The position numbers and the translations under genes were made by a program. Positions 11,419 through 17,899 of a DNA stretch of 64,000 bases are shown in pieces. How positions within the stretch are numbered: the stretch's first letter is position 1; the number at the start of each line of letters is the position of its first letter. Location of the stretch: assembly GCF_014763045.1 (NCBI RefSeq), contig NZ_JACTAG010000001.1:744001-808000 (forward strand). Reading direction: 5' to 3'. This DNA is from Sulfitobacter aestuariivivens. GTDB taxonomy: Bacteria; Pseudomonadota; Alphaproteobacteria; Rhodobacterales; Rhodobacteraceae. The notes beneath the pieces are model-generated. The model did not search any database, was not told the origin of the DNA, and saw nothing but the letters and a program-made list of their open reading frames with translations.

Positions 11419-11784
11419 ATGTTAGAACCTTTGAACGCGTCTTATCCGGTCTTGCCTTTGCGCGACATCGTGGTGTTTCCGCACATGATTGTCCCGCTTT
11501 TCGTGGGCCGCGATAAATCCGTGCGCGCGTTGGAAGAAGTGATGTCGGACGACAAGCAGATTCTGCTGTCCAGCCAGATTGACCCGGCAGAGGACGACCC
11601 TGAGGCTGAGGGTATTTTCAAGGCTGGTGTGCTGGCCAATGTGTTGCAACTGCTGAAACTGCCCGATGGCACCGTCAAGGTGCTGGTCGAGGGGCAGGCG
11701 CGGGTGCGCATCACCGAATACCTGGAGAATGATAACTTCTTTGAAGCCCGCGCAGAGTATTTGAAGCCCGCGCAGAGTATCTGA
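11419..11784 (+). pseudogene. lon: Lon protease, N-terminal fragment (frameshifted by a 20-bp duplication)
   Basis: Residues 1-114 are the start of a normal Lon N-terminal substrate-binding domain (YPVLPLRDIVVFPHMIVPL). After Tyr114 a duplicated 20-bp unit shifts the frame, adding LKPAQSI before a TGA at 11782. The start ATG at 11419 has AAGGA seven bases upstream; a TTG at 11413 is less likely. If one 20-bp unit is removed the frame joins directly to the downstream ORF, giving an 803-residue Lon, the usual alphaproteobacterial length. As it stands the N-terminal domain is separated from the ATPase and protease. This could be a real mutation, a reversible slippage state, or an assembly error. 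Confidence 0.9.
11740..11780. repeat. Exact 20-bp tandem duplication inside lon
   Basis: The unit TTGAAGCCCGCGCAGAGTAT occurs at 11741-11760 and again, without mismatch, at 11761-11780; the preceding T is also shared, so 41 bases have a period of 20. Twenty is not a multiple of three, so the copy shifts the lon frame. One copy fits the conserved Lon protein sequence exactly. Confidence 0.97.
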
Positions 11785-11789
11785 CCGAG

Positions 11790-13850
11790 ATGCCCGGCGA
11801 TGAGGCCACGACACAGGCGCTGATCAAGACGGTTGGAGATGAGTTTGAGCGTTACGCCAAAGTGAAGAAAAACGTGCCGGATGAGGCGCTTGCCGCAGTC
11901 GGTGAAAGCGCGGAGCCGGCCCGTCTGGCGGATCTGGTCGCAGGTCATCTGGGCATCGAGGTTGAGCAAAAGCAGGAGTTGCTTGAAACTCTTAGCGTGA
12001 GCGAACGGCTTGAGAAGGTCTATGGCCTGATGCAGGGCGAAATGTCCGTGCTGCAGGTCGAGAAAAAGATCAAAACGCGCGTCAAATCGCAGATGGAGCG
12101 GACCCAGCGCGAATATTACCTCAACGAGCAAATGAAAGCCATTCAGCAAGAGCTGGGCGATGGCGAAGACGGCAAGAACGAAGTTGTCGAGCTTGAAGAG
12201 AAAATTGCCGAGACCAAACTTTCGAAAGAGGCCAAGGAAAAGGCCGAAGCCGAGGTCAAAAAGCTCAAGAACATGTCGCCCATGTCAGCGGAAGCGACTG
12301 TCGTGCGCAACTACCTTGACTGGATGCTGTCTATCCCGTGGGGCAAGAAGTCACGCGTGAAAAAGGACCTCTCCAAGGCGCAGGAGATTCTTGATAACGA
12401 CCACTATGGTCTTGAAAAGGTGAAAGAACGCATTGTCGAGTACCTTGCGGTGCAGCAGCGTTCGTCCAAGATGAAAGGCCCGATCATGTGCCTTGTCGGC
12501 CCTCCGGGTGTGGGCAAGACATCATTGGGCAAGTCTGTTGCCAAAGCCACGGGGCGCGAGTTCATTCGCATCTCGCTGGGCGGCGTGCGCGATGAAAGCG
12601 AAATTCGCGGTCACCGCCGGACGTACATTGGCTCCATGCCGGGCAAGATCATTCAGGCGCTGAAAAAGGCGAAAACGACCAATCCGCTGATCCTCTTGGA
12701 TGAGATTGACAAGATGGGTCAGGATTTCCGGGGTGATCCGGCGTCGGCCATGCTTGAGGTGCTGGATCCGGAGCAGAACTCGACCTTTGTCGATCACTAT
12801 CTGGAGGTCGAATATGACCTTTCGAACGTGATGTTTTTGACCACGTCGAACTCCTACAACATGCCCGGCCCCTTGCTGGACCGGATGGAGATCATTCCGC
12901 TGTCGGGATACACCGAGGACGAAAAGCGCGAGATTGCCAAGCAGCATCTGGTCGACAAGCAGATCAAGAACCACGGTCTGAAGGGCAAGGAATTTGCCAT
13001 TGAAGACAGTGCTTTGACGGGCATGATACGGTACTACACCCGCGAGGCGGGCGTACGAAACCTGGAGCGGGAAATCGCCAAGGTGGCGCGCAAGTCGCTG
13101 ACCAAGATCATCAAGAAGGAAGCGGAAGAGATCACCGTCACCGGTGACAACCTCGAAGACTTCCTTGGTGTGCGCAAATTCCGCTACGGTCTTGCAGAAA
13201 AAGAGGATCAGGTCGGGGTGGTGACCGGATTGGCCTATACGTCCGTCGGCGGTGAATTGCTGTCGATCGAAGCGTTGCGCCTGCCGGGCAAGGGCCGGAT
13301 GAAGACCACCGGCAAGCTTGGCGATGTGATGAAGGAATCCATCGATGCCGCGTCGAGCTATGTGCGGTCGATCAGCCCCAGGATCGGGGTGAAGCCGCCG
13401 AAGTTCGACACAGTGGATATCCATGTGCACGTGCCCGATGGTGCGACGCCCAAGGACGGTCCCTCAGCGGGGCTTGCCATGGTAACCGCCATAGTATCGG
13501 TGCTCACGCAGATCCCGGTGCGCAAGGACATCGCCATGACCGGTGAGGTCACACTGCGCGGGAATGCGTCGGCCATCGGTGGTCTGAAGGAAAAGCTGTT
13601 GGCAGCCCTGCGTGGGGGCATCACCACCGTACTGATCCCGGAAGAAAATGAGAAGGATTTGCCTGAAATTCCCGATAACGTGAAAGAAGGGCTGACCATC
13701 ATTCCGGTGTCTCATGTGTCGGAAGTGTTGAAACATGCGCTGGTGTCAACGCCTGAGGCGATCGAGTGGGATCAGGAAGCCGAAGACGCGGCAGCCGCCG
13801 CGGCCCTCGCAGCGAAATCGGGCTCAGGAGATGGCGCCACCGCGCACTGA
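11790..13850 (+). CDS. lon: Lon protease, ATPase and protease part (out of frame with its N-terminus)
   Basis: This 686-residue frame holds the rest of Lon: the end of the N-terminal domain and coiled coil, then the AAA+ module with Walker [14 protein letters not shown] and Walker [12 protein letters not shown], and the Ser/Lys protease domain with the nucleophile in [11 protein letters not shown] and the catalytic Lys further on. Lon degrades misfolded and regulatory proteins in an ATP-dependent manner. The ATG at 11790 lies five bases after the TGA of the N-terminal fragment, so termination-reinitiation could produce this piece, but there is no good ribosome site of its own. Without the first 117 residues, substrate selection and hexamer assembly would probably be impaired. 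A strong terminator follows the gene. Confidence 0.9.
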
Positions 13851-17746: not shown

Positions 17747-17855
17747 CCGCTGCATTTCCTTCAGGTTAACACAAATCGGAAGCAACGTTTTGCGGCGCTC
17801 CTGCGCGCGGCAACGCGAATCGTCCGTTAATGCTGCGTTTGCTGGCTTTTTCGCT

Positions 17856-17899
17856 GTCGGTATCACGTCGGTATTGCGTCGGTACCGCGTCGGTGACAG
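17856..17899 (+). repeat. Four imperfect 11-bp direct repeats downstream of tRNA-Asp
   Basis: Four consecutive 11-mers begin GTCGGT: GTCGGTATCAC, GTCGGTATTGC, GTCGGTACCGC and GTCGGTGACAG. The last copy also forms a small hairpin (TCGGTG/CACCGA). The 252-bp gap between the tRNA and the next gene holds no credible gene. The position behind a tRNA 3' end would suit an old integration site, but no integrase or tRNA 3'-end duplicate is visible. Confidence 0.75.

Follow-up and report, generated by a model that had tools for sequence, protein, structure and literature searches.

The lon gene of Sulfitobacter aestuariivivens raises the question of why a gene that is whole in its relatives is read here in two frames, and whether the interruption marks a recent mutation, an error of the assembly, a functional division of the protein, or a reversible switch. 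The gene lies in a window of 64 kb, which spans bases 744001-808000 of a 1.97-Mb contig, within a genome of 4.19 Mb available as a 14-contig draft with an estimated completeness of 99.99%. A recent loss-of-function or hypomorphic allele of lon, private to this lineage, is the probable explanation. The first-pass annotation had listed a switch, a fixed loss of full-length Lon, and an assembly error as options; a recent loss or weakening of Lon is favored here, while the switch finds no positive support and the standing of the assembly error is lowered.

The duplicated unit and the two pieces of lon

The features of the locus, all on the forward strand, are the following:

11419..11784 (+): lon N piece, 121 aa, first half of PF02190 (Lon N-lobe), with the last few residues out of frame
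11736..11746 (+): short inverted repeat CTTC-TTT-GAAG at the left end of the duplication, weak
11740..11759 (+): first 20-base unit, by direct reading, Tandem Repeats Finder, and script
11760..11779 (+): second 20-base unit, identical, the old and new copies being indistinguishable; carried by 0 of 109 junctions at other loci
11773..11783 (+): short inverted repeat CAGA-GTA-TCTG at the right end of the duplication, weak
11782..11784 (+): TGA stop closing the N piece, by frame reading
11790..11792 (+): ATG, candidate reinitiation start, five bases past the stop; an internal methionine in most genus relatives
11790..13850 (+): lon C piece, 686 aa, uninterrupted, with the remainder of PF02190, the AAA+ ATPase, the lid, and the S16 protease domain

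The unit TTTGAAGCCCGCGCAGAGTA occupies positions 11740-11759 and is repeated without change or gap at 11760-11779, as found by direct reading and by script, and one base past the second unit matches too. Tandem Repeats Finder reports the repeat at 11740-11784 with a period of 20 and a score of 83, the top of its 23 rows. Only two matches to the 20-base unit exist in the genome, both at the lon site. Chance is no explanation, as random sequence of 64 kb would contain some 6e-8 perfect tandem copies of 20 bases (64000/4^20, equal base frequencies). Two identical 20-bp units side by side, and a lon gene split by them into two frames, were what the first-pass annotation had described, and both the repeat and the division into a 121-aa N piece and a 686-aa C piece are confirmed.

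As the extra 20 bases are not a multiple of three, the frame is shifted after about residue 115. Instead of a single frame of approximately 800 codons, lon consists of 121 and 686 aa, and its open frame measures 701 aa. The N piece starts from ATG 11419, giving 121 aa, or alternatively from TTG 11413, giving 123 aa; it covers profile positions 2-116 of the 200 in PF02190 and aligns to the E. coli Lon N-terminal structures 2ane and 3ljc. The C piece resumes PF02190 at positions 123-199 and continues with AAA+, lid, and Lon_C. The LonA domain order (PF02190, AAA+, lid, Lon_C) is therefore complete, but across two frames. Mapped onto E. coli Lon (6u5z), the two pieces meet between residues ~118 and 123, where the N-terminal fragment with a structure of its own (2ane) ends.

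A Lon_C family search and a search with the DNA of the gene both found no LonA gene in the genome besides this one. A second lon copy was rejected, the other row at E<=0.001 being a 34% match over 126 residues that belongs to another gene, and a one-unit allele was not found in the assembly as a second copy or contig.

Intact lon in relatives and the age of the break

The genus search, covering 62 genomes, gave a full-length match to the C piece in 60, this genome included, and the two without one are 87% and 64% complete. In all 59 other genus genomes matched full-length, the open lon frame measures 803-891 aa, against 701 aa here; the uninterrupted frame of one relative (L151) is 803 aa, the length that had been named for a restored gene. 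At the level of the family, 388 of 395 genomes matched. Frames were taken from the best 150 of the 388 rows (this genome, two more of the genus, and 147 from elsewhere in the family). They reach at least 801 aa in every case except our own, and recurrent breakage of lon in the family is not seen among these 150.

The odd cases of both searches, 16 genomes with low-scoring, double, or missing lon matches, were reopened. Eight of the 16 have no match; five (G268, G440, G245, G114, and G437) have lon frames of 791-818 aa, two (G178 and G144) have lon cut by contig starts, and the match in G201 is partial. G201 aside, none of the reopened matches away from a contig start has a frame break like the one described here.

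Some of the genomes and records compared are of interest in their own right. G087, G205, and G417 are 96-100% complete and have no LonA match at 1e-8, which represents either real loss of lon or assembly gaps (70-340 contigs). G440 and G268 encode, beside a standard lon, second LonA-like proteins that are 46% identical to the C piece (L172 at G440:C11:3086-4981 and L173 at G268:C4:48431-50344). Two records carry a lon N piece close to our own under distant titles, L030 (Chromatiales bacterium, 85% identical) and L012 (Enemella evansiae, 89% identical), and are likely mislabelled or contaminated.

The same duplication was also sought in relatives, a check that the first-pass annotation had named. 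The insert is present at none of the 109 other lon junctions (97 in an alignment and 12 measured further), which are not all independent; those of L003 (Sulfitobacter sp. EAC16) and L103, of the same genus, are identical. The starts of the N and C pieces lie 371 bases apart here, whereas the distance is 351 bases in each of the 29 genus relatives compared. The nearest lon compared, L084, is 83.9% identical over the C piece, the comparison holding no conspecific strain. With an exact copy, a length indivisible by three, and relatives without the insert, the locus has the features of a frameshift by tandem duplication, and the earlier claim that lon is broken by a precise and recent duplication stands.

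The two pieces have changed at an ordinary pace. The ratio of amino-acid to nucleotide change is 0.136 for the C piece (0.109-0.155 in 29 relatives) and 0.132 for the N piece (0.089-0.150), and the root-to-tip distance of this lon ranks 21 of 30. Relaxed selection is thus not seen in either piece, and, with a normal replacement ratio and branch length, an old, decaying pseudogene is rejected. A lon long useless would show raised replacement changes; as none are seen, the break would be young relative to the split from the nearest relatives, or an artefact, or one that leaves the pieces functional, three possibilities that the replacement ratio does not separate.

Competing explanations

The exact duplication in a single-copy gene, intact in relatives and free of decay, fits best with a recent private mutation. 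One strand would have slipped or switched template in replication over 20 bases of lon, which would then have been copied twice, whether in nature or in culture. Through the frame shift, the strain would no longer make full-length Lon in quantity, and the allele would be a null or a strong hypomorph. Some 686-residue Lon without the N-lobe may leak through by reinitiation at the ATG of 11790, and one unit might, in principle, be deleted again by a rare slip. Slippage or template switching would be the natural cause. The near-repeat and small hairpins at the ends of the duplication are features that slippage would like, but both are weak marks: in the window, both ends fall within such hairpins for approximately 1% of 20-base spans taken at random, and pairs such as the near-repeat TTTGA/TCTGA, 20 bases apart, occur at 1.8% of positions. 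What speaks against a recent chance mutation is the closeness of the cut to a domain boundary, a place that a random event has no need to favor.

Loss of Lon is known to be survivable in an alphaproteobacterium, as Caulobacter without Lon is described as viable, with slower growth and defects in division and motility (PMC8545394); the label of "essential-type" given to the gene in the first-pass annotation is therefore too strong. Spontaneous loss alleles of lon have been reported in cultured or selected bacteria, including a one-base lon frameshift, described together with a frameshifting 8-base duplication in Klebsiella ramR (PMC11753663), and a structural variant in lon (PMC4079197). The present case resembles the spontaneous lon loss alleles of E. 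coli under antibiotic exposure in being a sporadic, probably lon-inactivating mutation in a viable strain, but its lesion is a duplication of 20 bases, and it comes from an unselected marine isolate, no selective pressure being known.

An assembly or consensus artefact, in which the second unit exists in the assembly alone, for example through an untrimmed join of pieces overlapping by 20 bases, is unlikely. Adjacent pieces in a k=21 assembly graph share a 20-base overlap, the assembly is a draft, and a single mis-joined overlap of this length would look identical; a lon that is whole in relatives and under normal constraint is also what is expected of an intact gene. On the other side, the site is internal to a 1.97-Mb contig, and a 20-base duplication is short relative to usual read lengths. 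Moreover, in the 784 kb sampled of the 4.19 Mb (the window and 36 further stretches), there is no N, and lon has the sole perfect tandem duplication reaching 15 bases or more; a systematic fault of the assembly is rejected on this evidence. Seven smaller tandem duplications in this sample have periods of 11 or 12, and 700 kb of three relatives hold six perfect ones of at least 15 bases with periods all divisible by three, so that the lon duplication is the sole frame-breaking one of at least 15 bases in the two samples.

Comparison of the open reading frames (ORFs) of relatives with the window bears on the same point. ORFs with matches covering half or more of their length number 84 in G029, 25 in G032, and 19 in G002; of the 84, lon alone is split without explanation by an opposite-strand ORF, as judged from overlaps. 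Widespread frameshifts were rejected, the other flagged splits being judged spurious from ORF overlaps: L156_25 is an ORF antisense to lon, L156_22 and L156_26 lie opposite other long ORFs, and the second half of L151_44, L160_41, and L160_12 is opposite or upstream of a gene. In G002, lon straddles the border of two sequence stretches, and the gene is unflagged in that comparison.

A separate short-period repeat was observed in the window, where units of GTCGGTA-N4 recur with an 11-base period at 17856-17884 (array 17851-17894), approximately 100 bases after tRNA-Asp. Further sites in the same genome include G000:C1:227471, C1:1213031, and C7:1112364. Three or more units give 18 overlapping pattern matches in this genome (C1, C7, and C8) and none in 10 other genomes, while the two-unit form is present nine times in 320 kb of this genome and a single time in 300 kb of G029, and is absent from 300 kb of G032 and from 100 kb of G002. 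The array seems to belong to a repeat family that is specific to this species.

Returning to lon, a functional split is improbable. Coupled termination and restart would here yield a separate N-lobe and a 686-residue ATPase-protease core blind to damaged proteins, an arrangement that the strain would tolerate or profit from. The break at the edge of the N-lobe, as placed above on 6u5z and 2ane, speaks for such a division, as does the position of the restart next to the stop, which is characteristic of translationally coupled split genes; the bases CCGAG lie between TGA 11782-11784 and ATG 11790-11792, so the spacing of five bases that had been claimed is correct. The two pieces are also otherwise unmutated, but their intactness is equally accounted for by the youth of the break. 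No such split is seen in any relative compared, and half of PF02190 (positions 123-199) remains on the core and may misfold.

No clear Shine-Dalgarno match is visible by eye for ATG 11790, which lies within a predicted stem, the fold of the site not being unusual (z -1.25). RNA and DNA folds at the site are altogether not unusual (z -1.25, 0.67, and -0.07; -0.88 and -1.06), and a promoter and terminator scan gave no more matches than in shuffles. At this position, 26 of 29 genus relatives encode an internal methionine, and 42 of the 97 loci in the junction alignment have ATG; being common in relatives, the codon was inherited and not created for reinitiation. The reinitiation proposed in the first-pass annotation is thus possible, but looks weak on account of the ribosome-binding site and the stem.

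What such a product might do is suggested by Meiothermus Lon, in which the N-lobe is described as the part that binds damaged substrates, and removal of residues 1-241 as leaving ATPase, peptidase, and casein degradation while abolishing degradation of heat-unfolded protein (PMC8087443). The AAAP construct of that work (residues 242-793) likewise comprises the ATPase and protease core minus the substrate-sensing N-lobe; as presented there, it is laboratory-made and lacks 241 residues, while the hypothetical product here would lack ~117 and keep the second half-domain. According to PMC10643698, truncated monomeric Lon mutants without N-terminal regions, which carry extra point changes, inhibit full-length Lon in E. 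coli. By analogy, a 686-residue product that is made and folds should be a core unable to sense damage; if none is made, the strain is without Lon. A fuller version, in which a free N-lobe accompanies a reinitiated core that cuts regulatory or disordered substrates without sensing damage, and full-length Lon is recoverable by loss of a unit, would be a natural two-piece Lon and is very improbable.

A reversible on/off switch, with frequent and selected gain and loss of the unit producing phase variation of Lon, has only a slight chance of being correct. Exact tandem repeats are losable by slippage, and known slippage switches retain the repeat as a standing feature. Here, two 20-base units make a minimal array, the assembly has no one-unit allele, and phase-variable loci have arrays of varying copy number in relatives, whereas the second unit is found at 0 of 109 other loci; a slip-prone array was not inherited, and selection would have had no established repeat to maintain. 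In Salmonella mutL, a change in small-tandem-repeat copy number is reported to switch between working and defective alleles (PMC2955026), which resembles the lon case as a change of this kind in a housekeeping gene; as reported there, however, the repeats belong to the working gene and conversion was measured, whereas relatives of this lon have one unit and conversion is hypothetical. No account of a tandem-duplication switch in lon was found in open-access papers. The switch accordingly has no positive support: loss of a unit can happen, as in any tandem duplication, with nothing showing it to be frequent or selected.

Meaning for the strain

The duplication gives no pointer to a new kind of system. 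Were it an artefact, the public gene model would be wrong. With a recent private lon allele as the preferred reading, those who use the type or model strain would have a lon-defective line if it is truly without full-length Lon, and effects on the cell cycle, motility, and stress would be expected, as known for Caulobacter without Lon. If the two-piece reading were true, one slippage event would uncouple quality control from regulatory proteolysis in a reversible way. A strain that does make the 686-residue product would offer a natural test of Lon minus its damage-sensing lobe.
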